A stretch of DNA of 64,000 nucleotides from NCBI GenBank assembly GCA_950295325.1, contig OX485804.1:48100429-48164428 (forward strand). The letters are read 5' to 3'. The notes beneath the pieces were generated by a model. The model had not been told where the DNA came from. It did no database searches and was given only the letters and a program-made list of their open reading frames with translations. Position numbers and translations under genes: made by a program. The DNA comes from Polytrichum commune. Lineage: Eukaryota; Streptophyta; Polytrichopsida; Polytrichales; Polytrichaceae. Within the stretch, counting starts at the first letter, position 1. Every line of letters begins with the position of its first letter. This document shows positions 1-64,000 of the stretch, in pieces.

Positions 1-152
1 ACACTGCTAGCACAATACTTCCATTGTCATGCCAGCTGTTTACCATTGCCAACAAATAGTAGAGTAATAAGCCCACTCTCACTTTGTAGACACAGTGCTA
101 CAACAAGGTGTCATGCACATGAAACTTAACCAGCCTGCCCACATCAGCTTAC

Positions 153-2517
153 CTGAGCAACAAAGTTGCTTACAACTCTGCCATCATCAATGCACATCCT
201 TGGTCCGTACGTGTTGAAAATACGAGCAATTCGGACCTGCAGAGCCAAACATAAGAGTAACTGTGCTGAAGCCTCTAGCCATAGACATCTAATCAAAATG
301 TCTGCATGTCAACCATCTATAAAGAGGAAATTCTTCAAGGTGATGCTAGTGCACATGCTCCAATTCCATCATCCTGTGCAATTTTCAGGTTCTCAAATAT
401 TCACAATTAAATTACAATACAATACAACGAATAATACCTGCACATCTGCTCCTCTGTGGTAATCCATGGCCAAGGTTTCAGCAGTACGCTTTCCTTCATC
501 GTAACAGCTCCTAACACCTGCTTGGTAATCACACCAACAATGTGCTTCATTCAAGTCATCGCACTTCCAAACTAATTACAGCTTCTAAAATTGGCATTCA
601 AACTCCACCAAACCATATGCACGATTCTCTATCACAAACAATACCAATGCATCAAAATTCGATAATAGTTATGCCTGATTCAAAACACTTCACATCCAGT
701 CACTCCTTCACTATATTAACATCATTTGCAATACTTCCAAAACATGAGTGCTGCTTCTGCATACAGGTTTCTGAAATTACCGATAGGGTTCACATTTCCC
801 CAGTACGACTCTGCTCATCCACATGATCACAATTGTTCGCCAACCGCCAACAACACACCACACAAAATGTCAGAGAACCGAGATGAGAGAAAGGACAGAC
901 CGAATATCAGAGAACCAGAGTCAGCATCTACAACATGGAGTCACAATTACATGCACATGCATGCATACCTTTTTGGGGATGTTCCAATGGATCGCCGTAA
1001 ACCTCGCTGGTACTGGTCAGCAAGAACCGTGCGCCAACTCGCTTTGCAAGCCCAAGCATGTTCAATGTCCCGACCACATTGGTCTTGTAACCCAAGGTCA
1101 AGGAGCTACCACGATGAGATAATTACATGCAACCAGGAAAACCATCCCCACTTCCTTTTTCCAGTAATCTGATGTTTACATTATGATAATGGCCTCCGAT
1201 ACCAGGGATCCATCTCTTCGACGAACACAATCTCTTCCAGACTAAAATATGCGGGTGGATCTCATACACACGCATAAACTACGTATCTGGTACACGAACC
1301 CTTCCTTTCATCCAACTACTAACCTTTCGCTTACGTTCAACCTGCAGGGCACATTCACAGCAAATACTGTTCCTGCCAATGTAAGAGCTAACCACTTCAA
1401 CTACACTCTGCAAATGAGACCACAAACTTGCCCGCGGAAGTCATCAACTTCACATAAATGATCGTAGTAGTCACGTGCAATGCAGACAGGATGTTCTATA
1501 AAGCGATGGCGCATTGTTCAAAAGAATCCTGGGTGATGTTTTCAGAGTTCCAAAACATCACAAGCCTCACTGGATTTCCACGACTACCCCAAACAATCAT
1601 TCCCGGCTCAGAACCACTACTACACGGTAACAACAAGTTGCCCATGGAAGTCGTAAAATTGACGTAAATGATCGTAGTGATCACATGCACGGCAGACAGG
1701 ATGTCCTATAAAGCGCGGAGCTACTCTTAACAAAAGCCTGCAGAATGTGTTCAGCATTGCAGAATCTGATGGGGGCTCACTGCATCTCGACACCTACTAC
1801 AGAGAAATCCTGCCAGCTCAGGATCGCAATTAAGCCGCTACCACAACGAAATAACAAATTGCCTCATCAACAAAGAGAGGATATGATGGTCTTGATGGGG
1901 TTGAACTTGTAGTGCACGGGTGAAGCCGGACACGCCAAATGGTAAATATGATCCACTTCCAAAAGAAGAGGCTCCACGACATCATGTCGAATCAGCTCGA
2001 ACCGGGGGTTACCGAAGTGATGCATAACATTCTCCTTCCTTCCGGTGAAGAAATTGTCCACCACGATCACACTGTCGCCCCTCGCAATCAACTTATCCAC
2101 CAGATGGCTCCCAACGAAACCTGCCCCGCCGGTCACCACCACACGCAACCCCTTCCTCGGCAGCCCCAGCGGGATCTTCCCTCCCGGACTCACGATCGCC
2201 GAATGCTGATTCCTGTAAGGCGCGCTCTCGAATGCCCTCACGGATCCTAGGGTTTCCTCGTCGGACTCGTACGCGACCACTCCCGGAAACGTCGTTGATG
2301 CCTCCGAATGTGCTCTTGTGAACTGAAATTCGGGCCGAAGGAACAAGAAAAACACCGAAGCTATGCCCATCCCTACCAACACGAACATGAACCGTTGCTC
2401 TCGAAGGACGTACTCCACTGATCGTGACACCGACCATTGTTTCTGCGGCTTCGATGTGTACACCGCGGAGTCGGGCTCTCCCCCGCCCCGCCGATGATTC
2501 AAGCTGGAGCTCATCAT
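153..2517 (-). CDS. UXS: UDP-glucuronate decarboxylase (UDP-xylose synthase), left inverted copy, 3' part outside window
   Basis: Converts UDP-glucuronate to UDP-xylose for cell-wall and glycoprotein synthesis; the type II, membrane-anchored form acts in the Golgi. Visible exons on the minus strand are 1885-2517, 969-1086, 781-810, 438-517 and 153-236. Exons 6-8 must lie left of the window. All exon lengths and phases equal those of the complete copy at 20995-24568. The start is the ATG at 2517 (ATGATGAGC); the open frame upstream of it begins only with TTG. Exon 1 holds an N-terminal transmembrane segment (about residues 43-60) and the NAD-binding GGAGFVGS loop (about 130-137). The two exon-1 products differ at two residues (D16/E and G51/A, numbered from this ATG). 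No frameshift or stop is seen in the visible exons, so both copies may be functional. The first intron has AT-AC U12 signals. Confidence 0.88.
1087..1884 (-). other. U12-type AT-AC intron 1 of left UXS copy
   Basis: Read on the minus strand, the intron starts ATATCCTC right after the ATC codon and ends with branch-like TCCTTGAC followed by CTTGGGTTAC. No GT-AG pair gives the conserved reading NPIKTIKTNVVG. Same signals as in the right copy. Confidence 0.8.
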
Positions 2518-3006
2518 CGTGTTCCAATCCAATCGCCCACAGCAACCTGGGAACCACGACCCCGATGTGCAAAACCTACCTGCTTGCCACTATCTGTATC
2601 ATCGACGTCAATGTGCGTGTGGGGGCTCTTAAGAAAGCTGGTTTGAAGGCGTTGATGCTACATCATGTTGCACACCACCTGCACATGACGACGCGATGCA
2701 ATGTAAGTGAATGTGAAGCACGCACCACGTCTGCCTGTGGCGATGGCCAGCGAGTGACGCCTTCCCTTCCCTTTCCCTTTTCCTTCCCCTTCCCTTTGCG
2801 GCCGGGGACTCACTTGGCTACGCTGGCTTTCGCAAAACTTTCCCTTGCTCGCCTTCCTCCGTCTCGCCTCTTGCCAAATCTCTCTCTCTCTCTCTAGCCT
2901 AATACTTTCCCTTTCATTTTGCTTCCTACCATAACCATAACTACGACTTACCTATCTACACTCCGACCTCCGTAATATCACACCATTGGCAACCAAAGCG
3001 CACGTG
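2518..3006 (-). promoter_or_regulatory. UXS 5' region, left copy
   Basis: Upstream sequence within the duplicated arm. It has a CCCTT-type pyrimidine run (about 2760-2800), a (TC)n tract at 2880-2898 that would be GA on the gene strand, and a CACGTG G-box at 3001-3006 at the arm boundary. These are typical plant 5' UTR/promoter composition features; no TATA box was assigned. Confidence 0.4.
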
Positions 3007-3693
3007 ATGTCAGTTCTAACACATTGTAGATTTTCTTACTTTTCATAAATGCAAACCCTAAAGCTCCCCTAAACCCTACTGAACATAGTTTTAGCCTCGG
3101 GTAAACAAAGCATGAATTTTTTTTTTTAAATCCTTGTATTGTACAAAAGTTTGATCCTTACGGCAATAATGGATACTGACATATCAACGCAGTTGGTCTC
3201 ACTAGAAGCTTATAAGAAAAAACTTGTATTAAGGAATTACCATCTTCAACTACCATCATTGGCTCACACAAGGGTTTGGTCCCAAAGGTATAGTTCTACA
3301 ACTTCTTGTGACATAAAAAAAACCATGATATATGGAAGAGAAATGTGATAGCAAGGAGAGAGGCTTAAATTAAGAACATATTATCCCTAGGGTTTTAGGA
3401 TATAAGAGAAGGAGTGACATTGAGGAGGTTGGTATAACGGATTTTAGAGTGTGTATATACAATGGACAATATGGTGGTGAGGTCATCGCCCCATCCTTCC
3501 GCATTGTTCTAGAAAGGTGGGGAGAGTGATGTGTCATATGTATAGGTGCAAAAAGGTTGGGTGGCATGGGTCCATACTAGTTAAGGTACATGGTCCTCAA
3601 TGGTTATTTTTTTGTACTATCACACTTTATAGTTGAGATTAGGACATCATCTCTTTGAGCCCCGATTTCTCCTATGACATGAACACACAATTA
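3007..3693. other. Intergenic, no gene seen
   Basis: AT-rich sequence without a convincing coding frame. From about 3586 it resembles the older dispersed repeat also present at 11149-11275 and, inverted, at 37300-37520. TTA at 3691-3693 is the left target-site copy of the element that follows. Confidence 0.5.
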
Positions 3694-4637
3694 GGGCCGG
3701 TTTGCACCATGGACAAGGAAGTCGTCCCATGGCATTGTAAGAGCGTTCATTGGTTGCTAAACTCATCCTAGGACCACTTCGGTTTACACCAAGGAAAAAA
3801 TGGCATATAGTGATCATGGAGGTTGAGGTCCCCAAAAAACATATTTGAAGGCCTAATCAATACACTGACATGGTCCAACGGGTTTTGTGATGAGAGAGGC
3901 AAGAGAGGTGGTCTGGTTGGAAAAGGCAAGGGCCCATGGCAAAGAAATGCCGTTATAATCTTTTTTTTAATGAATTTTTTTGGGGGGGCTTTATATACAA
4001 CTTTCCCCATCATGTAAGGCTCACAAGGCACATTTTTCAACATCTATGTGATATAATGGATATTGAGAAGCAAATCCGCCCTCTATGTGCCTTGATCATA
4101 TCATAGCCCATGAGACATACCAATTCTTCCATGCCCTACCCCTTAAACCGGCTCCCACATGATTCACCAAACATTGTGGGATGTCTATAACTCAAGAATT
4201 TGAGTACACATGGTGAAGCAGGTTGCAAATAATGCTCAATGCACAACACAAGGTACATGTCACATGTAAATTACATTGAACATGTACAAATGAAATCACT
4301 CCTTTTTTTTTGTAAAAATTGTTGTGAGAAAATTTGCAGCCACATCTTTGACACATTTAACAAGAAGTGAAGATAAGTGAACACAAGTGAAGCCGAAGAG
4401 AAGAAAAATGAGAATTGTCAAACTTGAAGAAAAAAATTAAAATGCCTTTTTTGGGCATATATTAAAAAAAATCATCACAATCACTTTTGGGTGCATGGTC
4501 ATTATTCTTGGTCCACATTCGGTTTACACCTAGTGAGGGGCCCAAAGGCTTTGTAAACCGAATTTTTAAGAAATCAAACCATGGACAAAGGCCATCTTCC
4601 ATGGTCCGACTCCATGGTCCATGGTGTAAACCGGCCC
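3694..4637. mobile_element. PIF/Harbinger-like non-autonomous TIR element
   Basis: 944 bp bounded by inverted ends: GGGCCGGTTTGCACCATGG at the left and, on the other strand, GGGCCGGTTTACACCATGG at the right, about 21 bp with one mismatch. It is flanked by TTA on both sides (3691-3693, 4638-4640), the target duplication typical of PIF/Harbinger. Subterminal copies of CGGTTTACACC occur near 3780 and 4516. There is no transposase frame, so it would depend on a partner. Confidence 0.75.
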
Positions 4638-4849: not shown

Positions 4850-5652
4850 TGTAATGTAACTAGAATTATTAAGGAATATTCTAACTACATGTGCCAGTGT
4901 GTAAGCAGAAAAAGATGAGAGCTAGACAACTCTCGGTTGAGGATGAATGGAAAGGAGTAAGACAACTCCAGATTGACAACATGTGCACTGGAGTTAGACA
5001 GCTCCGCATTTAGTACATTGGAACTAGACCATTCCAAGTGAGAACAAGTGCACATGAGTTAGACAACTCTCGATGAGGTGCACAGGAGTTAGACCACTCC
5101 ATGGATAAAGCTAGTTGGAATTAGACAGTTCCAACTAGAAGATTGACTAGTTGGAATTAGACAATTCCAACTAAGAGAAAGGTTGGATGAACCAAGTTGG
5201 AATTAGACAGTTCCAACTGGAATGAAGGATGAATGTATTTAGTTGGAATTAGACAGTTCCAACTAGAAAGAAGAATGGATGAATCCAATTGGAATTAGAC
5301 AGTTCCAATTGGAAGAATGGAATTGAGATAAGAGATGAAAGAAGGTTCTAGAAGAACCATAGATAGAAGATTCATAGTAGAACTATGAGATAGAGCTATG
5401 AATAGAATACTTTTACTATATGTAAATATAGAAAGTAAAAGTAGTGCTTCGGCATAAAAGGAAGCTCGGGGGAGGAGAGAGGATCTTTTTTGTCTCTCTC
5501 CTATGGTCGGGTGGTAGAGCTTCGTTGACCAAACTTTATTTGGTTGCGGTTTGTACTTAGAGGAAGAAATAAAATTGGTGTTGGTTTCAATTCTTTACTT
5601 TGAGATTTTGTGGTCAAGACACAAATTGCCAACCGGTGAGAGGTTCGTAATA
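4850..5652 (+). repeat. 5' LTR
   Basis: 803 bp, starting TGTAATGTAACTAG and ending GGTTCGTAATA, with an exact partner 5302 bp downstream. It contains an array of small hairpins (4917-5312) and a possible TATA-like ATAAAAGG near 5454. Confidence 0.95.
4917..5312. repeat. Array of about 11 small hairpins with a shared TAGAC loop (repeated at 10219-10614)
   Basis: Eleven units of the form stem - (C/T)(T/A)AGACnn - complementary stem. Stems vary while remaining paired: GAGAG/CTCTC, GGAG/CTCC, TTGGAA/TTCCAA, AGTTGGAA/TTCCAACT, CCAATTGGAA/TTCCAATTGG. The last five stems are 8-10 bp. Loop core and length (8 nt) are conserved. The same array sits in the 3' LTR. Confidence 0.85.
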
Positions 5653-5655
5653 AAT

Positions 5656-5667
5656 TGGTATCAGAGC
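5656..5667 (+). other. Primer binding site (initiator Met-tRNA type)
   Basis: TGGTATCAGAGC, the usual complement to the 3' end of plant initiator methionine tRNA, starting 3 nt after the 5' LTR. Confidence 0.9.
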
Positions 5668-5679
5668 AGGTTGGATGCC

Positions 5680-8600
5680 ATGGAGAGTTTGGAAGAAAGA
5701 GTTACGAGAGCGGTGTTGATAGCATTGAGAGAAAATCAAGGTGTTCCATTACAAGAGGTCCCACCTCTTCCTAGGGATCCTCCTCCCAATACTCCACCTC
5801 CTCCAAGAGAGGATCATGTAGCTACACCACTTGTCTCGAGGGAGGAGGAGTCTAGTTCAACATCATCTCCAAGGAGGCTATCTCATGGAGATGTGGATAT
5901 TTTGAAAGATGTAAAAAAATATCCAATTAAGCCGAGTTTTGGAGGCCGAAACTGCAAACCGGAAGAAGTCATGTCGTTCATTTCAATAGTGGAGGATTTC
6001 TTTCCTTCAAAATACACAGATGCAGATAAAATCAAAGTCACAGTAATTTTCCTCAAGGACAAGGCACGGGTTTGGTTTGACACACTGAAGAGGGACCGAG
6101 AGAATAGGGGACTGGGACCTATTGCAGAGTGGAACACGTTCAAAGAACTTTTTCTTCATCAATTTCTCCCTGGCAATTACGGGGAAGACATGCGCCAAAA
6201 GCTATACGACTTGAAACAGGGAAATTTTTCTGTAACCCAGTTCAAGTTAGAATTCGATGAACACATTGTTTACTTTCCCAATTGGGGTGAGAGTGATAGA
6301 ATTGAATTCTTTATCCGCAACTTAAAGGATTCAATAAGGTACAAAGTTAGTACTCATAACCCACGGACTTTAGATGAAGCTTATGGGTTGGCTATGAACT
6401 TTGAGAGAGAAGTCAATAGCAGGATGGAGAGGACAAAAGGTCAATTGGGAAAAAGAACTTCAGAATTTAAATACCCTGCCAATCAAAGCTCCAAGTTTGC
6501 GAAATTTTCCAAGAGTTCTAAACCATCTCAATTTTCAAAGTTCAACCAAGGAAACAAGACGTTGATACTGAGCAAGGAAGAGCAAGAGGAGCACGTCAAG
6601 AAGGGTTTATGCTTCAGATGTCACAAGCCTGGGCACCGGAGTTTTGAATGCCCAACAGTCAAGAGGAAGATAGCAGCAATCGAAGTAGAACACGAAGACG
6701 GTGATGAGTCAGATGGTGAGCCAACCAAGGAAGGAGTTCCGAGCATCTCAACAGCAGTCATGAACATGGAGGTGGAACAAGAGCCAACAGTGCTACAAAT
6801 CAAGGGATTTCTAAATTCTACCTTTTCTTCGATGATCTTGATTGACTCTGGCAGCACTCATAACATGATGTCAGTTTCATTTGCTCATAAGTTAGGACTT
6901 CCCTTAATTCCTATCAAACCATGTTCAGTATGGTTGCCGAACAATCAACCAAGTTTTATTACTCACCGCGTGTTGAGAGTGCCTGTAAACATCCAAGGAG
7001 TGGACACTGAAGCGGATTTTGAGGTTTGGAATGGAGCGCGATATGAGGTGATACTAGGGATGGCGTGGCTTAAAGAAGTCGATGCATGGATCGCATGCAA
7101 AGAAGGAGAAGTGCACGGGAAGCTTCTGAACGGTAAATATTTTTCTATCAAAGATAAGAGATCTTTGCCGAACACTCCTACTCTTTCACATCTACAAATG
7201 AAAAGATGTGGTAGAAAAGGTCATCAAGTATTTTTGATACATATAAGCGAAGTTGAGAATGAATCTAAAGATGACGCTTTGAGTAATAACGGAGTGAAGA
7301 TATTCTTGGATGATTTTAAAGATTTATTTCCTGAAGAGTTAAATGAGCTACCACCTACTAGAGAGGTTGATCATGCTATTGACCTCGTTGCCAATGCTGC
7401 TCCTGTGGCTAAGGCACCATATCGTCATTCTTTAGCTCAAAATGTTGAGCTTGAAAATCAATTAAAGGATTTGTTAAACAAAGGATATATTAGGCCAAGT
7501 AAATCACCTTGGGGAGCTCCTGTTCTTTTTACTAAGAAGAAGGATGGATCTTTAAGATTGTGTGTAGATTATCGGGGTCTCAACAAACTAACTATAAAGA
7601 ACAAGTTTCCTTTGTCCCGCGTTGATGATATTTTTGATCATCTATATGGATCAAAAATATTTTCCAAAATAGATTTGAGAAGTGGATATCACCAAATTCG
7701 AATAAAAGAATCTGATATTGCGAAAACTGGATTTAGGTCATGTTTGGGTCATTACGAGTATGTGGTAATGCCTTTTGGTCTTACAAATGCTTCTGCTACA
7801 TTTATGACTTTAATGAATTCAATATTTCGTGATTATTTGGGTAAGTTTGTACTTGTGTTTATTGATGATATCCTTATATATTCTAAAAGTGAGGAAGAAC
7901 ACAAACAACACCTTAAACAAGTTTTTGAAATTTTGAGAGAACATAAGTTATACGCTAAACTAAGTAAATGTGTTTTCTTTACTTCGCGTGTTGAGTTTCT
8001 GGGTCACGTTATCTCTGATGAGGGAGTCTCCGTTGACCCTAGAAAGGTTACGGCCGTTGCTGAGTGGCCAATACCAAAAGATAAGACTGAGGTTAGAAGT
8101 TTTTTAGGTCTTGCAAGCTATTATAGAAGATTTGTAAAAGGATTTTCTAAAATAGCTGCGCCTATGACCAACTTGCTAAAAGGCAAAAGTAATGCGATAG
8201 ATTGGACCCCGGAATGTGATTCAAGTTTTCAGACTTTAAAATCATTGTTAACCCAAACTCCTGTTTTAACTATTATGGATCCTTTGAAAGGAAACATAAT
8301 ACTATGTACCGACGCTAGCGATTTAGCTATTGGTGCAGTTTTGATGCAAGATAAGAAAATAATTGCTTACGAATCTCGTAAATTGAATTCTGCTGAGTTG
8401 AATTATCCGGTACATGAAAAGGAATTACTAGCAGTAATCCATTCGCTAAAGGTTTGGAGACATTACTTACTAGGGGTAAGGTTTAAGATTCAAACAGACC
8501 ATGAGTCTTTAAAATATTTGTCAACTCAACCTCATTTGAGTAGAAGACAATGTAGATGGATGGAATTTTTACAAGAATTTGATTTTGACATAGAGTATAT

Positions 8601-10137
8601 TAAAGGAAAAGAAAATGTGGTTGCTGACGCTTTGTCTAGAAGACCGTTAGCAAATGCCATCTCATGCATTAGAAATCCTTTAATGGATGAAATTAAAGGA
8701 CATTATGCTACTGATGATTTCTTTAATCTTTCATTTGAAAGTTTGTCTAAGGAAGCTAGGACCGCAGATGAAATTGAAAAATTTAAATGTTTTGAAGTGA
8801 AAGATGAAATTTTATATTATAATGGTAAAGTTTGTGTTCCCAAGTTTGGAGAACACAGACTCAACATTATAAATAACCTTCATGACATTCTAATAGCAGG
8901 TCATCCAGGGTTTCAAAAGACTTACATGGCGGTTAAGCGTCATTACTATTGGCCAGGAATGAAAAAAGATATTAAAGAATATGTTGAGAGATGTTTAAAA
9001 TGTCAAGTCACTAAAACAGAACAAGTGAAGGACCCTGGATTGCTCCAACCACTTGGTGTGCCTAACTTAAAGTTTGAATCAGTCAGTATGGATTTCATTG
9101 TAGGATTGCCAAAGACTCAAAGAAATTTTGATAGTATCATGGTAGTTGTGGATAGGTTGACAAAGATTGCTCATTTTATTCCTACAGTTACTACTGTTAC
9201 TGCTTATGGAGTTGCTGAACTATTCATGAGAGAAATTTTTAAGCATCATGGAATTCCACGAGAAATTATAAGTGATAGAGATCGTAAGTTTGTGAGTGAG
9301 TTTTGGACTACTCTATTTAAATTGTGTGGAACTAAGATTAAGTTAAGCAGTGCATATCATCCTGAGACGGATGGACAAACTGAACGGACAAACAGAACTC
9401 TTGAGGATATGTTAAGGATGTATGTTGGCCAGAGACAACAATCATGGGATAAGTGGTTGCATATGATTGAATTTGCTTATAATGATCATATTCATAGTAG
9501 TATTGGGGTAAGTCCATTTTATGTTCTATATGGTCAGGAATGTAGAACCCCAATTACACTTTCTACTCCTAATACGAGATTTGAAAGCATTAATGCTATG
9601 ATTAGGGAGATGAATGAAATTAGAGAAACGGCAAAGTTGGCTATGAAAAGTGCTCAGGATAGAGCTAAGCATTATGCTGATAACAAAAGAATTTTTCGTG
9701 AATTTGAAGTTGGTGATAAGGTGTTTTTAAAGGTAGCACCTAATCGATCTGGACTTAAGCTTGGCAAGTCAAGAAAGTTATCACCTAGATTTTGTGGTCC
9801 ATTTGAAATTTTGAAACGGATAGGCAAAGTAGCTTATGAGTTAAAATTACCAGAGGATTGGAAGATCCATAATGTTTTTCATGTGGGTTTATTAAGAAAA
9901 TATGTGTCTGATCCTAACCATATTTTGCCTGACCTTCCCAAAGTTGCTCCAGAGGGAGAACTTCTTGCAGAACCTGAGAAGATTTTGAAAATAGAAAATC
10001 AATATCTAAGGAATAAGACTTTCCGTAGATTTTATGTGAAGTGGAAAGATTATCCTGAAGAAGAAGCTTCTTGGGAAAGAGAAGTTGATTTCAGAAAGGA
10101 CTATCCTAATTTTGTCATTGAGGACAATGACTTTTAA
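5680..10137 (+). CDS. Gag-Pol polyprotein with C-terminal chromodomain (Ty3/gypsy chromovirus)
   Basis: A single 1485-aa frame without stops. The frame is open back to 5551 inside the LTR, but that start is TTG; the first in-frame ATG after the PBS is at 5680. Domains in order: Gag (about residues 80-260); CCHC zinc knuckle C311-C324 ([14 protein letters not shown]); aspartic protease with DSG at 389; reverse transcriptase with FIDD at 727-730; RNase H with TDAS near 878; integrase with HHCC zinc site (H1068 to C1105/C1108) and a DD35E core (D1138, D1199, E1235); GPF-type region; chromodomain (about 1432-1480). Every catalytic residue checked is present. Chromodomain integrases usually direct insertion to heterochromatin; this copy lies in repeats. 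The exact clade was not resolved. Confidence 0.93.
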
Positions 10138-10138
10138 T

Positions 10139-10150
10139 GGAAGGGGGAGA
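10139..10150 (+). other. Polypurine tract
   Basis: GGAAGGGGGAGA just after the stop codon, one base before the 3' LTR; it would prime plus-strand DNA. Confidence 0.85.
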
Positions 10151-10151
10151 T

Positions 10152-10954
10152 TGTAATGTAACTAGAATTATTAAGGAATATTCTAACTACATGTGCCAGT
10201 GTGTAAGCAGAAAAAGATGAGAGCTAGACAACTCTCGGTTGAGGATGAATGGAAAGGAGTAAGACAACTCCAGATTGACAACATGTGCACTGGAGTTAGA
10301 CAGCTCCGCATTTAGTACATTGGAACTAGACCATTCCAAGTGAGAACAAGTGCACATGAGTTAGACAACTCTCGATGAGGTGCACAGGAGTTAGACCACT
10401 CCATGGATAAAGCTAGTTGGAATTAGACAGTTCCAACTAGAAGATTGACTAGTTGGAATTAGACAATTCCAACTAAGAGAAAGGTTGGATGAACCAAGTT
10501 GGAATTAGACAGTTCCAACTGGAATGAAGGATGAATGTATTTAGTTGGAATTAGACAGTTCCAACTAGAAAGAAGAATGGATGAATCCAATTGGAATTAG
10601 ACAGTTCCAATTGGAAGAATGGAATTGAGATAAGAGATGAAAGAAGGTTCTAGAAGAACCATAGATAGAAGATTCATAGTAGAACTATGAGATAGAGCTA
10701 TGAATAGAATACTTTTACTATATGTAAATATAGAAAGTAAAAGTAGTGCTTCGGCATAAAAGGAAGCTCGGGGGAGGAGAGAGGATCTTTTTTGTCTCTC
10801 TCCTATGGTCGGGTGGTAGAGCTTCGTTGACCAAACTTTATTTGGTTGCGGTTTGTACTTAGAGGAAGAAATAAAATTGGTGTTGGTTTCAATTCTTTAC
10901 TTTGAGATTTTGTGGTCAAGACACAAATTGCCAACCGGTGAGAGGTTCGTAATA
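10152..10954 (+). repeat. 3' LTR
   Basis: 803 bp, same sequence as 4850-5652 as far as I can see by eye. Followed by ACACC, the second copy of the target duplication. Confidence 0.95.
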
Positions 10955-10971
10955 ACACCAAATCTTGCTTT

Positions 10972-14435: not shown

Positions 14436-14550
14436 AACTGAGTGAAATGACAATCGAATGGATTTCCAAGTATTGAGGAATGAAACAAATCAATTCTAAA
14501 AAATAGCATTACATATCATCAAAGAGTTGATAGTCTACTGCAAAATTTAA

Positions 14551-14914
14551 CTACACTAAATATCATATTTAGTGTCACATGGTATTTAATGTTACTATGG
14601 TATCTTTCTGGATGACACTTATTATGAATAAGTTTATTGTCATGGATGATGGATGAGTTCATCCATTGCCAGAACCCTACCTTCTCTTGTCAACAACTTG
14701 CAATGAAATATTGTCATGGATGATTGAATTTTGGATCACTTGGTAAGTGACAGTAATTGCAACACTATAAATCTATAATCCCCCAAAATTTTTACAACAA
14801 ATGACAAATCATCTCGGGTTCACATTTAGTGTTGGCGACGCTACACTGCGGTTTACAATTAATATTGAGCAAGACAATCATAATTGGTGACACCAAATAT
14901 GACATTTAGTGAAG
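14551..14914 (-). mobile_element. MITE family X, copy 1 (CTACACTAAATAT ends)
   Basis: Starts CTACACTAAATATCATATTT and ends near ...GACATTTAGTGAAG, inverted. Inner blocks (GGATGACACTTATTATGAATAAG, ATCCATTGCCAGAACCC) match copy 4 at 63760. Copies 2 (26454) and 3 (39991) are in the opposite orientation. No coding capacity. Superfamily uncertain, since no clear target duplication was found. Confidence 0.75.
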
Positions 14915-20502: not shown

Positions 20503-20508
20503 CACGTG

Positions 20509-20994
20509 CGCTTTGGTTGCCAATGGTGTGATATTACGGAGTTCGGAGTGTGGATAGGTATGTCGTAGTTATAGTTGTGGTAGGAAGCAAAATGAAAGGG
20601 AAAGTATTAGGCTAGAGAGAGAGAGAGAGAGAGATTTGGCAAGAGGCGAGACGGAGGAAGGCGAGCAAGGGAAAGTTTTGCGAAAGCCAGCGTAGCCAAG
20701 TGAGTCCCCGGACGCAAAGGGAAGGCAAAGGAAAAGGGAAGGGAAGGCAAGGCGTCACTCGCTGGCCATCGCCACAGGCAGACGTGGTGCGTGCTTCACA
20801 TTCACTTACATTGCATCGCGTCGTCATGTGCAGGTGGTGTGCGACATGGTGTAGCATCAACGCCTTCAAACCAGCTTTCTTAAGAGCCCCCACACGCACA
20901 TTGACGTCGATGATACAGATAGTGGCAAGCAGGTAGGTTTTGCACATCGGGGTCGTGGTTCCCAGGTTGCTGTGGGCGATTGGATTGGAGCACG
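20509..20994 (+). promoter_or_regulatory. UXS 5' region, right copy
   Basis: Contains a (GA)n tract at about 20616-20634, purine-rich AAAGGGAAGG blocks at 20716-20750, and the G-box at 20503-20508. It matches the left copy, so both genes should start with nearly the same proximal promoter. Confidence 0.45.
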
Positions 20995-23900
20995 ATGATG
21001 AGCTCCAGCTTGAATCATCGGCGGGGCGGGGGAGAGCCCGAATCCGCGGTGTACACATCGAAGCCGCAGAAACAATGGTCGGTGTCACGATCAGTGGAGT
21101 ACGTCCTTCGAGAGCAACGGTTCATGTTCGTGTTGGTAGGGATGGCCATAGCTTCGGTGTTTTTCTTGTTCCTTCGGCCCGAATTTCAGTTCACAAGAGC
21201 ACATTCGGAGGCATCAACGACGTTTCCGGGAGTGGTCGCGTACGAGTCCGACGAGGAAACCCTAGGATCCGTGAGGGCATTCGAGAGCGCGCCTTACAGG
21301 AATCAGCATTCGGCGATCGTGAGTCCGGGAGGGAAGATCCCGCTGGGGCTGCCGAGGAAGGGGTTGCGTGTGGTGGTGACCGGCGGGGCAGGTTTCGTTG
21401 GGAGCCATCTGGTGGATAAGTTGATTGCGAGGGGCGACAGTGTGATCGTGGTGGACAATTTCTTCACCGGAAGGAAGGAGAATGTTATGCATCACTTCGG
21501 TAACCCCCGGTTCGAGCTGATTCGACATGATGTCGTGGAGCCTCTTCTTTTGGAAGTGGATCATATTTACCATTTGGCGTGTCCGGCTTCACCCGTGCAC
21601 TACAAGTTCAACCCCATCAAGACCATCATATCCTCTCTTTGTTGATGAGGCAATTTGTTATTTCGTTGTGGTAGCGGCTTAATTGCGATCCTGAGCTGGC
21701 AGGATTTCTCTGTAGTAGTTGTCGAGATGCAGTGAGCCCCCATGACATTCTGCAATGCTGAACACATCATGCAGGCTTTTGTTAAAAGTAGCTCCGCGCT
21801 TTATATGACATCCTGTCTGCCATGCATGTGATCACTACGATCATTTACGTCAATTTTACGACTTCCATGGGCAACTTGTTACCGTGTAGTAGTGGTCCTG
21901 AGCTGGGAATGATTGTTTGGGGTAGTCGTGGAAATCCAGTGAGGCTTGTGATGTTTTGGAACTCTGAAAACATCACCCAGGATTCTTTTGAACAATGCGC
22001 CATCGCTTTATAGAACATCCTGTCTGCATTGCACGTGACTACTATGATCATTTATGTGAAGTTGATGACTTCCGCGGTCAAGTTTGAGGTCTCATTTGCA
22101 GAGTGTAGTTGAAGTGGTTAGCTCTTACATTGGCAGGAACAATATTTGCTGTGAATGTGCCCTGCAGGTTGAACGGAAGCGAAGGTTAGTAGTTGGATAA
22201 AAGGAAGGGTTCGTGTACCAGATACGTAGTTTATGCGTGTGTATGAGATCCACCCGCATATTTTAGTCTGGAAGAGATTGTGTTCGTCGAAGAGATGGAT
22301 CCCTGGTATCGGAGGTCATTATTAGAATGTCAAAATCAGGTTACTGAAAAAGGAAGTGGGGATGGTTTTCATGCTTGCATGTAATTATCTCATCGTGGTA
22401 GCTCCTTGACCTTGGGTTACAAGACCAATGTGGTTGGGACATTGAACATGCTCGGGCTTGCAAAGCGAGTTGGCGCACGGTTCTTGCTGACCAGTACCAG
22501 CGAGGTTTACGGCGATCCATTGGAACATCCCCAAAAAGGTATGCATGCATGTGCATGTAATTGCGACTCCATGTTGTAGATGTTGACTCTGGTGCTCTGA
22601 TATTTGGTCTGTCCTTTCTCTCATCTCGGTTCTCTGACATTTTGTGTGGTGTGTTGTTGGCGGTTGGCGAACAATTGTGATCATGTGGATGAGCAGAGTC
22701 GTACTGGGGAAATGTGAACCCTATCGGTAATTTCAGAAACCTGTATGCAGAAGCAGCACTCATGTTTTGGAAGTATTGCAAATGATGTTAATATAGTGGA
22801 GGAGTGACTGGATGTGAAGTGTTTTGAATCAGGCATAACTATTATCGAATTTTGATGCATTGGTATTGTTTGTGATAGAGAATCGTGCATATGGTTTGGT
22901 GGAGTTTGAATGCCGATTTTAGAAGCTGTAATTAGTTTGGAAGTGCGATGACTTGAATGAAGCACATTGTTGGTGTGATTACCAAGCAGGTGTTAGGAGC
23001 TGTTACGATGAAGGAAAGCGCACTGCTGAAACCTTGGCCATGGATTACCACAGAGGAGCAGATGTGCAGGTATTATTTGTTGTATTGTATTGTAATTTAA
23101 TTGTGAATATTTGAGAAACTGGAAATTGCACAGGATGATGGAATTGGAGCATGTGCACTAGCATCACCTTGAAGAATTTCCTCTTTATAGATGGTTGACA
23201 TGCAGACATTTTGATGAAGTATCTATGGCTAGAGGCTTTGGCACAGTTACTGTTATGTTATGTTTGGCTCTGCAGGTCCGAATTGCTCGTATTTTCAACA
23301 CGTATGGACCAAGGATGTGCATTGATGATGGCAGAGTTGTGAGCAACTTTGTTGCTCAGGTAAGCTGATGTGGGCAGGCTGGTTAAGTTTCATGTGCATG
23401 ACACCTTGTTGTAGCACCGTGTGTGCAAAGTGAGAGTGGGCTTATTACTCTACTATTTGTTGGCAATGGTAAACAGCTGGCATGACAATGGAAGTATTGT
23501 GCTAGCAGTGTAACAGTATAATTGCATTTGTGAACTTTTAGGCTTTGCGAAAGGAGCCTATGACTGTCTATGGTGATGGAAAGCAAACAAGGAGTTTCCA
23601 ATACGTCGCTGATTTGGTACAGTGCCTACTGAATTTATTTACCTGTGTATGTTGGTCTCTCAAACACACTTTGTAGGAGGCTTTTGTGATACGAGCCACT
23701 TTGGAATGTGTATATCTGCCTTGTTTGATGTGCTAATTTTGATGGAGATGACTGTGGATGTAAACTCTACTCAGAAGGATCTCAGTGGGATAAATGCTTC
23801 CATTTGAAACGTATATTCGTGTGGCTGTATCCTTGAAGCGGATGGCTTGAATGGCTGTGTGACCTTCCTGTAATGTGACACTAGAGCATTGTTAGGTTCT

Positions 23901-26453: not shown

Positions 26454-26851
26454 CTACACTAAATATTGTATTTAGTGTCACCAATTCATTATGTCTTGCT
26501 CAATACTAAATGTAAACCGCATGTGTAGTGTCACCAACACTAAATGTAAACCTAACATTATTTGTCGTTTCTTGTAAGTTTTTTTGGGCATTATAGATTT
26601 ACAATGTTGCAAATAATGTCACTTACAAAGTGATTCCTCATCCAAATTTTCATCACCCATGAAAACATTTCATTACAAAACTTTGAGGATGCATAATACA
26701 CCAAACTTCGTTTCAATAATTGGCATTTGAATGAACTAAAAGTAAGTTGGGATGATAGTACTTGTAAAATTATTCCTACAAAGCGTCCCTTAGAAAAGTT
26801 ACCACAATGACATAAACTACCATATGACACTAAATACAATAGTTAGTGTAG
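26454..26851 (+). mobile_element. MITE family X, copy 2
   Basis: 398 bp from CTACACTAAATATTGTATTT to ...ATAGTTAGTGTAG. The ends are inverted (CTACACTAA / TTAGTGTAG). Shares CAACACTAAATGTAA and TTTACAATGTTGCAA with copies 1 and 3. Confidence 0.8.
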
Positions 26852-27294
26852 AATATGCGGTAAATATGGAATCTACAATAGATGTAGACGTCAATAGGCC
26901 TTTTCAAAATTGGAATATACAAAAGATCTTACAGAAGGTAGCCTGAGCCCTTTGGGACATTGCCTAAACCCTAAACCCTAAGTTACAAGCTCAAATTTGT
27001 GTCGGACAAATGTGAGAAACTACTTAACTTAGTGCAATGCAATACACTCGAGAGGATCACCATGCACCACTTTCCACCTCTATATACAACATAGTATGTC
27101 TCCCATTTGATTATTGCAACGCCTACAATGCTCCAACGAGACCACTTGGCAATTGCCGACCGCTAGATGTAGATAGTTGACCCACCTTCCACATGCGAGA
27201 TTCAGCAAAACCGAGGGCGGGGGTTTCGGGGATCAGGCAAAACCCTAAAACTCCCATTATTCCAAGCCGACAACGCACCATGAAGCTTGCTTGC

Positions 27295-39990: not shown

Positions 39991-40374
39991 CTACACTATA
40001 TATGTATATGCATTGTGTTTAGTGTCACCAGTTCTATTTGTCTTGCTCAATACTACTTGTAAACCGTTCATGTAGTGTCACCAACACTAAATGTAAGCCT
40101 AACCTTGTTTGTCATTCCTTGTAACAAATTTTGGGTTTATAGATTTACAGTGTTGCAAGATTGCCACTTACTGAGTGGTTTTTCATCCAAATTTCAATCA
40201 TCTATGACAATATTTCATCATCGAAATGTTAGGATGCAAAATATATCCAAAGTCGATGAATTAAAGTAAGTTGGACTGAAAATAGTTGTAAACTTATTCA
40301 TAAGAAGTGTTATTAGAAAAGTTACTACATTGACATAAAATATTGTATGACACTAAATACAATATACAATGTAG
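39991..40374 (+). mobile_element. MITE family X, copy 3
   Basis: 384 bp from CTACACTATATATGTATATG to ...CAATGTAG, same orientation as copy 2, sharing GTCACCAACACTAAATGTAA and ATCTATGACAATATTTCAT blocks. Its right end touches the ATATG target duplication of the next element. Confidence 0.8.
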
Positions 40375-40379
40375 ATATG

Positions 40380-40631
40380 TGTAACATGGGCCACTATTGG
40401 TACATGTTGACTAGAATTAAGATAACGGTAGTCTAGAATGAGTTTAAAGTAAAAGCATAGAGTTCATTATAGTTGAACTTGCTTTTTATTTTATTTAAAC
40501 TTAAGACAACCGGGCATGGTGGGGAGGTATATAAAGAGCTCTTGCACAAGGGTGAAGGTTCTTTATCTTATCTCGTGGTTGGGTGGTTCATGCCAAAGTA
40601 ACTTCCAACGAAGAATTAGAGTTTTGTTAGA
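40380..40631 (+). repeat. LTR copy, inverted relative to the internal gag
   Basis: 252 bp with a TATATAAAG box at about 40530. Followed by a PBS, then joined directly to the interior of gag. Confidence 0.85.
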
Positions 40632-40639
40632 TTTTGGTA

Positions 40640-41505
40640 TCAGAGCGAGATCGTATCACTCTTTTGTAACCAATCTCCCTACCATTAGTGAACTTCATGG
40701 TAGATTTCTTCTGATTCTTGATTGGACCACCTACCCCTATAGAAGGAGTCTTTTTCTCACCGTTCTTAGTAGTTGCAATTCCCAACCCTGCCTTAACTTG
40801 TTGGAGATTAAAATCTATAGAAACGGCATAGGTATTTAGCCTCTGAAAATCCTCCCAAGGTTGGGCATCATTCAATGAATCCACCGCTACCTTTAATCTT
40901 ATTTTTGGCTTCAATCCATCAATAAAACGGTGAATCTTATCACCAACACTCATGGATAAAGTCATCATTTCTGCACATAACTTTTGAAACTCATTGGCAT
41001 AACTCTCAACTGATGAGTGCTAAGATAATTTACTAAGTTTGGTACAGGCAACCTGTTCAGGGTTCACATTCCCATAGGCCTTTGTAAGTGCCTATTTGAA
41101 ATGTACCCACTCTTTAGGATTTTTGCCCTCTCTCTCTAAAATTTTCATCGTATTTTGCCAATTCTACGCAACTCTAACCTCAAGATAGGTTTGAGCAATA
41201 TCTACCCAAAAGTCAGGAGAGGTGTTACCAGCATGTAGGTAATTCTCCATCACACCTAACCAAGCATGGATGCGTACTCGCCTTCCTTCTTTGAATTTCT
41301 CCGGATTTGTTGGCTTGCACTTCATTGGCTCCTTCACCTTATTGGTTTCTAACATCGCCAACTTCACCTCCGTGCTCTCCTTGGCCCTCTTCAATTCCTC
41401 CATCTCTAGCATAAGATTTTGGATAGTGATACTATTCTCTAACGTGTTCTCCATCTCTGGAGGATACTGAAACATTTTTATCAAGAGATGCCATCTTCCT
41501 CTTGA
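40640..41505 (-). pseudogene. gag remnant of the inverted-LTR element
   Basis: Minus strand. 41164-41475 reads MFQYPPEMENTLENSITIQ... with KFKEGRRVRIHAWLGVMENY, a Ty3/gypsy Gag-like start. After stops, 40640-40968 continues with DKIHRFIDGLKPKIRLKVAV. The frame then runs into the inverted PBS. There is no protease, reverse transcriptase or integrase. Non-functional. Confidence 0.75.
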
Positions 41506-41532
41506 AACTAAAAACCGGCTCTGATACCAAAA

Positions 41533-41772
41533 TGTAACGAAACTCTAATTCTTCGTTGGCATGAACCACCCAACCACGAGATAAGATAAAAAACCCTCAC
41601 CCTTGCGCAAGAGCCCTTTAGATACCTCCCCACCATGCCCGGTTGTCTTAAGTTTAAATAAAATAAAAAGCAAGTTCAACTATAATGAACTCTATGCTTT
41701 TACTTTAAACTCATTCTAGACTACCGTTATCTTAGTTCTAGTCAACATGTACCAATAGTGGCCCATGTTACA
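41533..41772 (-). repeat. LTR copy in the orientation of gag
   Basis: 240 bp, minus strand, ending TTTCGTTACA before the PBS. This is the normal 5' LTR of the element. Confidence 0.85.
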
Positions 41773-41777
41773 ATATG

Positions 41778-61985: not shown

Positions 61986-63759
61986 ATAGTTAGGGGCTAA
62001 TAAAAGTCAAAGTCTATTGCTGTAGGTTGATAGCAAGTTAAGATTAAATTGTTTTTTTATTAATCAAGCCTAATAGTTTGGAAATCAATGAGTCAAATTG
62101 CCTAAATGGAAGGGGAAAAATCATAGAAATGTCTAAATATTAGGAAATTTGGTATGTCCAGAATCTTGGGGGGTGTACTCTTCATACCACATGTGAACTA
62201 ACATGAGTGTAGGAAGGGGTATTATTTGAAGTGTTAGTGTACATAGTATACATGAGGGAGAGTATCACTTTACTCTAGTGCGTACATTTAAAAAGGTTAT
62301 TAGGAATTTCAAATAAAGGTAGATGTACAGAAGGTGCCCCTCAGGTTTAGAGGAAAATTGACTACAAATATGCCAATTTCATCCAATTTACCTTAGTTCA
62401 TCCAAATGACATGTATTCTAGGGTCATATTATTATAAGTTATATCCTATGGATGGAAAAAATGCTTAATGACTTTCTCCTTGGAATGTGAAAGTGGATTA
62501 TAAATGTAGTAAAGGCCCGTTTGTTTCATGATTTATATTTTGTGTATGTAGTCTAAGCATTTGTCACATCAAAATGAAAAGCTTAGTAGAAATACATGAG
62601 TCCATTTTCTAGCCTACTGTTAGTACGTTTACATTTGATCTTCTCTCTAAATGTTCCATTAATAGAGTTTTATTTATTTATTTCATAGGCACCCATACAT
62701 GTCATTTACGTTTCCAATCAAGAGTCCCCCCCCCCCCACCCACCCCCTACCAGGGTTTTGGAATGAGGCCAAAGTCAACAACACCTCACAAACATTGACA
62801 AACGATACCTAACACACGCATTCACTTCGACATTCACACGAAATTAAGCTGACATTCACGGGTTACAAACTAAACTTCTCAAAATGAAGAGTCCTAAAAG
62901 CTCTACAGTCTGCCTAGGTGTGGGGAAAGTCTAGAGAAGTCTGGAGACGAGGTGTTGTTGTGTGAGGGTGAAGTTACAATACATGAATTTACATGTAGGA
63001 TATGTTATGTGCCTAAATAAATAAATAGACACTTATAACATACACATTTGCCTAAAGTTTCACGAACATTTTATAGACCGCCGAAGCCCTTGTTTTGAAA
63101 TTAATGAATTATTGGACATTTTTTGCCCAACCTGCTATCAACCTACAATAGAGAAAGCAAAGAGGTGGGTCACAAATAGGTGTGGATTCAAATACGATGT
63201 TCTTGGACCTTTACACGGATGCTCTTGACACTAACGTAACTTATTTGTGAGCCTAATAAGAAGGAAGCGGTTTCACTTGCTTGGAGTCTCGAAAAGTTAC
63301 CTACCTCTAGGGTAGTTAAAACCGCCTTCCGAGACCTGCAAATAAAATACAAAGGACATCTAATTGCGGGATAAATTAAAGCCTCCATTCACCATGTAAG
63401 GGTATGGGCACGTGTAAGTGTAAGTGTAAGTGTACGTGAAGTGCAATTAATCACACAACATTGATGTTGGTTAATAAACTTCCTCGCTTGTTGGGTTTTG
63501 GGCTTTCCCACAAGGGAGATTTACGCCTTTTCCAAGTGATCTCTTAGGACTACGGGTGCTAGCTAGCTAGCTAGTAGAAGGTGATTGGAAGTAGGATCGA
63601 AATAATAATAATAATAATAATAATAATGAGGCCAACAGTCTCCGCAATTGATCCCGATGGGGGCCTCGATCGACAGCAGTAAATGACTCGGGAATTTAAT
63701 CCATATAAGGGAAACAATAAACGGGGGGAGAACTAACTTGGCTACACTATTTTGTCTAA
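61986..63759. other. Intergenic with simple repeats
   Basis: C run at 62726-62736, (GTAAGT)n at about 63412-63433, CTAGCTAGCTAG at 63560-63573 and (ATA)n at 63601-63627. No gene. Confidence 0.5.
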
Positions 63760-64000
63760 CTACACTAACTATGGTGTTTAGTGTGATATGGTATTTTATG
63801 CCACTATGGTACCTTTTCGGATGACACTTCTTATGAATAAGTGAACAAGTATCGTCGTGGATGATGGATGAGTTCATCCATCGGTCGAACCCCTACCTTC
63901 TCTTATTGGCAACTTGTGATGAAATACCGTCATGGATGGTTGAAATTTGGATGAAGAGTCACTTGGTAGGTAACAGTAATCGCAACATTGTAAATGTATA
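63760..64000 (-). mobile_element. MITE family X, copy 4, cut by window edge
   Basis: Starts CTACACTAACTATGGTGTTT and matches copy 1 (GATGACACTTCTTATGAATAAG, GGATGAGTTCATCCAT) up to the window edge; the other end is outside. Confidence 0.75.

Follow-up and report, generated by a model that had tools for sequence, protein, structure and literature searches.

Insertions with a U3 end at both termini recur in two Ty3 chromovirus families of Polytrichum commune

U3-ended, self-complementary retrotransposon cDNAs recurrently form and are integrated in the genome of Polytrichum commune, where we identified six insertions with a U3 end at each terminus, belonging to two families and flanked by 5-bp target-site duplications that are perfect in five cases and match at four of five positions in the remaining one. 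One of them lies at 40375-41777 of the window, i.e., the whole stretch of 64,000 nucleotides that was analysed (C2:48100429-48164428, in a contig of 70 Mb; the genome comprises 408 Mb in 64 contigs). Its features are as follows.

40375-40379, no strand: left copy of the target-site duplication, ATATG, read from the sequence
40380-40631, + strand: left LTR, 252 bp, beginning with TGTAAC, U3 end outward
40635-40646, + strand: left primer-binding site (PBS) TGGTATCAGAGC, 12 nt, separated from the LTR by the spacer TTT and of a type that we take to be that of the initiator Met tRNA
40647-40657, + strand: 11-nt filler at the strand-reversal junction
40658-41517, - strand: leader and broken gag running on from the right unit, spanning parent positions from about 1110 to 268
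41518-41529, - strand: PBS of the right unit, with a three-base spacer to the LTR
41533-41772, - strand: right LTR, 240 bp, U3 end outward
41773-41777, no strand: right copy of the target-site duplication, ATATG

The left unit (40380-40646, + strand) corresponds to the parent sequence up to the final base of the PBS, i.e., to LTR plus PBS exactly, and the right unit (41518-41772, - strand) belongs to an LTR-PBS-leader-gag segment retaining the normal leader, with the antisense gag lying between the two units. This gag matches PF03732 (E 3.2e-8) and PF19259 (Ty3_capsid), carries three in-frame stops as well as a frame break near its start, and breaks at about position 1110 of the parent, whose gag continues through the zinc knuckle. 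The PBS 12-mer occurs three times in the window versus 0.02 expected, twice in this element and once at 5656, in a different element. Coordinates, PBS counts and the PF03732 match thus confirmed the arrangement originally proposed from the sequence, namely opposed LTR+PBS units, a broken gag between them and a duplicated ATATG. The two arms, aligned over 243 bases, show 8 mismatches in addition to one 12-nt indel, the right LTR being devoid of a 12-nt stretch that is found in the other 31 of the 32 family LTR rows in which the segment could be located. Branch support in an LTR tree was too low to decide on a sister relationship of the two LTRs.

The left flank of the element (40012-40379) is a dispersed MITE-like repeat, of which other copies occur in the window at 26465-26857, 14548-14914 and 63757-64000, and the retroelement is inserted at the right end of the repeat. 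The search for an empty-site paralogue through this flank gave none among the repeat copies, since the repeat ends at the insertion point. A tRNA scan and an Rfam search returned no matches, and no relatives were found in the collections of viral contigs and genome contigs.

The original prediction also called for a search of the genome for the parent family and further inverted copies, which yielded both. In the case of the parent family (family 1), 40 of 225 first-look candidates were scored, giving rows in 38 loci, and 36 of these loci were read wholly or partly (all except C5:41620517 and C7:19476509). The extended sequences of L043, L044, L045 and L048 contained no additional portion of the element. 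The parent is a Ty3 chromovirus of about 5.2 kb with direct LTRs, a PBS and the polypurine tract (PPT) AATGGGGAGGAG, and this PPT or near variants of it precede the 3' LTRs of the family. At locus L029, separate open pieces present the domain order zf-CCHC, aspartyl protease, RVT_1, RT_RNaseH, rve, SH3_Tf2-1 and Chromo, with the zf-CCHC, aspartyl protease and rve matches lying below the curated cut-off. In the direct copies for which both outer ends were read (L013, L017, L020, L024, L027, L029 and L034), the 5-bp duplications match at four or five of five positions, with uncertain termini at L027 and L017, where there was some choice of terminus; the terminus of L025 is unreadable. Furthermore, L016, L022, L024, L025, L027, L039 and others have the same stretch of about 260-270 bp missing from gag (from about 471 to 741-745 in the parent), and the copies with this deletion seem to represent a subfamily that has spread. 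In L024 and L025, about 160 kb apart, the 5' LTR adjoins identical host sequence (atcccaatacaa), which probably reflects a segmental duplication.

A census of family 1 with the 32-base U3 end, allowing up to 3 mismatches, gave 105 sites (46 on the + strand and 59 on the - strand; 0 in the control). Among the 100 listed of these 105 sites, pairs within 10 kb amounted to 12 same-strand rows and five U3-outward rows, the latter corresponding to four elements, while U5-outward pairs numbered 0. Two of the same-strand rows represent U3 ends 109 and 136 bp apart, and the other 10, read in part, are likely direct copies. Random placement would give 0.06 U3-outward pairs versus the four elements found (P about 5e-7). 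Besides the window element (ATATG), perfect duplications flank L022 (CATAG) and L019 (TTTAC), and L046/L049 shows TATGT/TATGC, matching at 4/5 positions. In L022, the LTR followed by TTTT is joined, with the PBS absent, to antisense sequence starting from parent position 1453. In L019, the LTR ends 7 nt short and is followed by a 17-nt filler, which is an inverted copy of the LTR/PBS boundary, and then by antisense sequence from 4579; its left end also bears a partial U3 and a PPT-like remnant. In L046/L049, the left LTR is broken at 202 and is followed by sense sequence 2844-3982 and then by antisense sequence from 1662 to 1, with a gap in gag. As a separate observation, two same-orientation family 1 U3 ends 136 bp apart (G000:C3:52138069 and 52138205) resemble the left end of L019, where U3 is likewise doubled.

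The second family is represented in the window by a chromovirus at 4850-10955, a young and complete element with 804-bp LTRs that are 100% identical and one 1528-aa frame running from gag to the chromodomain; it gave no DNA match to the LTRs and gag of the inverted-LTR element. Among the 100 listed of its 112 U3 ends, pairs within 10 kb comprised 14 same-strand rows (13 of them at 5.3-7.1 kb), two U3-outward pairs and two U5-outward rows, both of the latter deriving from one crowded C5 cluster whose three flanks mismatch. Both U3-outward pairs have perfect duplications, CCACC at L050 and CATAG at L051. The arms of L050 are identical at 726/726 bases, and two differences from the window copy are common to both of them; its fuller unit consists of LTR plus PBS and one further base, followed by a 29-nt filler, whose first 9 nt repeat the LTR end in inverted orientation, and by the antisense LTR from 726. 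In L051, LTR positions 1-450 are joined to an antisense segment beginning at 806, two bases past the LTR, and the arms match at 416 of 433 columns. The view that the window element arose by insertion of a single cDNA carrying U3 at each terminus is thus supported, and its structure recurs in three further elements of family 1 and two of the second family (four perfect duplications and one at 4/5).

The six elements are also alike in where they break. In five of them, one unit breaks within a zone of 23-24 bases, from 7 nt before the LTR end to 1 nt past the PBS; since the zone was picked after the data had been seen, its probability is descriptive only. In particular, the break lies at the PBS end in the window element and L050, slightly beyond the LTR in L022 and L051, and 7 nt short of the LTR end in L019; L046 falls outside the zone, its reversal leading from sense 3982 to antisense 1662. 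The expectation that the left unit would have the size of strong-stop DNA (LTR plus PBS) was thus borne out exactly in the window element, and the neighbourhood of the LTR/PBS boundary recurs in five of six. The PBS-end breakpoint appears in another form, as a sense-oriented 5' deletion, in 3 of 20 family 1 PBS rows from other loci: L013 and the right unit of L019 are cut exactly at the PBS end, and L028 has 7 extra bases. The junctions carry fillers of 11 nt (window element), about 1 nt (L022), 17 nt (L019) and 29 nt (L050), with little microhomology. The 11-nt filler of the window element matches neither the leader nor the gag of the family copies read, and a search for its source with up to 1 mismatch in a subset of the family loci read retrieved only the element itself and one unrelated site in the window.

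Plus-strand strong-stop mis-transfer, followed by extension on a plus-sense strand and integration of the resulting U3-ended cDNA, is in our opinion the best explanation and probably the correct one. The sequences themselves establish the anatomy, its origin in a single insertion, its recurrence in both families and the LTR/PBS breakpoints; the strand switch, its template and the succession of steps are inferred, as follows. Plus-strand strong-stop DNA, consisting of U3-R-U5 and the 12-nt PBS copied from the tRNA, would fail, during reverse transcription of the Ty3 chromovirus, to be transferred to the PBS of the minus strand; its 3' end would instead be extended on a plus-sense element strand from inside gag, traversing the leader, the PBS, U5 and R in reverse until the U3 end was reached, and second-strand synthesis would turn the product into a linear duplex that terminates in U3 on either side. 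Integrase would take this duplex, because the U3 and U5 ends both carry TGTAAC/GTTACA, and insert it with the usual 5-bp target duplication. The template must be the plus-sense strand, a point absent from the original prediction, since extension on the minus strand would produce a deletion instead of an inversion. A single intermediate could therefore have two outcomes, a deletion when its 3' end lands on the minus strand and an inversion when it lands on the plus-sense strand, and the sense-oriented 5' deletions at the PBS end are what a switch of this DNA end onto the minus strand should produce. Moreover, the lack of any established U5/U5 insertion fits the switching of plus strands, which begin with U3, although with six elements this is suggestive only. 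The inverted copies of the LTR end within the fillers of L019 and L050 suggest copying over blunt joining.

Some observations speak against this mechanism. The earlier proposal that strong-stop DNA primed ectopically inside gag agrees with the LTR/PBS breakpoints and the recurrence in two families; however, the microhomology that was to be looked for at the PBS/gag junction failed to appear, the end of the left PBS showing no convincing homology to gag and an 11-nt filler occurring in its place. Furthermore, L046 departs from the boundary rule, and L022 is without the PBS. Two parent molecules may have been involved, given that in both L022 and L019 a 51-nt tandem duplication in U3 is present in only one LTR of the pair; a similar LTR difference, of 65 nt, occurs in the direct copy L017. 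Among the sites that differ, 9 of 30 in the inverted pairs versus 31 of 127 in the direct pairs have both states common, and these similar fractions mean that base substitutions give no sign of two parents. A mosaic LTR, with U3 from one parent and R-U5 from another, was considered and dropped, because the longest difference-free stretch had P 0.077 and the site fractions were alike; a cut at base 150, picked afterwards, gave P 0.010.

Fillers of 11, about 1, 17 and 29 nt with scant microhomology are also made by end-joining, and two incompletely plus-strand-extended cDNAs, one of them double-stranded only through LTR and PBS, could have been joined tail to tail by the host, either before integration or after both U3 ends had been integrated together. 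The unequal U3 lengths in the LTR pairs of L022 and L019 fit such a joining, which we consider a possible, though clearly less probable, origin; however, the double switch within the single element L014 and the inverted LTR-end fillers look copied, and the 726/726 identity of the L050 arms, with two common differences from the window copy, is what would be expected of one parent. Truncated and interrupted family 1 copies are common, a circumstance in which one might think of two oppositely oriented elements inserted independently, or of an ordinary copy that was rearranged later. Both are very improbable: 5-bp repeats lie directly outside two U3 ends at six sites, where a perfect match would arise by chance about once in 1024, so that separate insertions, the alternative envisaged at the outset, are practically excluded, and an inversion within a direct-LTR element leaves one U3 end and one U5 end. 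Equally little credit can be given to an assembly artefact, for, even though inverted repeats are prone to misassembly, the duplications are clean, the arms of the window element have diverged at 8/243 bases, and the arrangement occurs at six loci of two families, and the contigs are long (70 Mb for that of the window).

Strand reversals were also noticed in family 1 copies that are not of the U3/U3 type. L014 (3481-4425) contains antisense gag with an LTR on one side and a partial LTR on the other, and shows a double switch from the LTR end to antisense gag and back into the LTR; L036 (3851-4862) shows a snap-back in gag, and L018 (5095-5662) a sense/antisense junction in the internal region. 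Reversal is therefore not confined to strong-stop DNA.

As regards classification, the Ty3-type gag, the domain order of the parent, the 5-bp duplication, the tRNA PBS and the PPT of the direct copies assign the window element to the Ty3/gypsy chromoviruses by origin; it differs from a canonical LTR retrotransposon, which has direct LTRs and terminates in one U3 and one U5 end, in that both termini are U3. TRIM, LARD and TR-GAG elements are non-autonomous and have direct LTRs with PBS and PPT; they were ruled out, as the LTRs here are inverted, each with a PBS, and the copy has no direct 3' LTR. DIRS/PAT elements use a tyrosine recombinase and make no target duplication, and were ruled out by the 5-bp duplication and by the rve-type integrase stretch of the parent. 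A foldback or MITE DNA transposon was likewise ruled out, the arms being LTRs of a retroelement family followed by the PBS.

Misplaced strong-stop DNA is already known from retroviruses, and what is notable here is the recurrence of the U3/U3 insertions and the natural LTR hairpins that they produce. Pulsinelli and Temin (1991) reportedly found large deletions in retroviral vectors arising from strand-transfer errors, in which strong-stop DNA likewise went to the wrong place; those deletions are reported to be sense-oriented, whereas the LTRs of the present copies are inverted, with U3 at each terminus. Olsen and Swanstrom (1985) are said to have described defective retroviral DNA derived from plus-strand strong-stop DNA, with a similar breakpoint at the PBS edge; that was reportedly unintegrated DNA of an animal virus, whereas the present copies are integrated with a target duplication and belong to two retrotransposon families. 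Autointegration yields inversion circles in which the LTRs of the cDNA are also inverted, but these are circular dead ends made by integrase, in contrast to the linear U3/U3 product found in the chromosome. In LINE-1 twin priming, an inversion similarly arises within one insertion during reverse transcription, but LINE-1 is target-primed and non-LTR. The accessible text of Sabot and Schulman 2007 (PMC1950507) explains complex LTR insertions with a 5-bp duplication by abnormal template switching; unlike the window element, the insertions presented there have three LTRs, with elements sharing an LTR in one orientation. Among the reports listed by our literature search, none was recognised as describing integrated U3/U3 LTR insertions with target duplications, a result that says little of subscription journals; passages of PMC7215508 and PMC2151762 likewise deal with other subjects.

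If strong-stop DNA was misplaced as proposed, these loci would provide sequences of what a failed second-strand transfer yields, with a legible signature in their breakpoints, and the insertions indicate that integrase can insert a two-U3-ended cDNA in a living lineage. Standard LTR finders seek direct LTRs and would presumably miss or split U3/U3 copies. Every such copy is a natural LTR hairpin, the arms measuring 240-252 bp in the window element and sharing 726 identical bases in L050; hairpins of this kind are suspected of silencing such elements. In the accessible part of a 2024 Arabidopsis EVD paper (PMC11624286), which also cites the Mu killer inverted duplication, LTR hairpins from head-to-head, tail-to-tail or nested insertions are presented as possible silencing helpers; a U3/U3 pathway would yield such hairpins in a single step, making this idea directly testable. 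It is possible to hypothesize, as an unlikely and speculative extension, that U3/U3 integration belongs, as a regular side pathway rather than an accident, to the reverse transcription of plant Ty3 elements, and that mis-extended strong-stop DNA keeps making hairpin loci with two inward promoters, whose double-stranded RNA would first trigger the in-trans silencing of a bursting family.

Two further observations concern family 1 and the window. In L028 (6342) and L041 (about 1340-1380), some 15 extra bases separate the 3' LTR from AACCAT, a match to the 5' flank; integration of a 3' end that had been extended beyond U5 is a possible cause. Finally, positions 1-3006 and 20503-23511 of the window form an inverted 3-kb duplication, 97% identical, with an NAD-epimerase-like frame in each copy.
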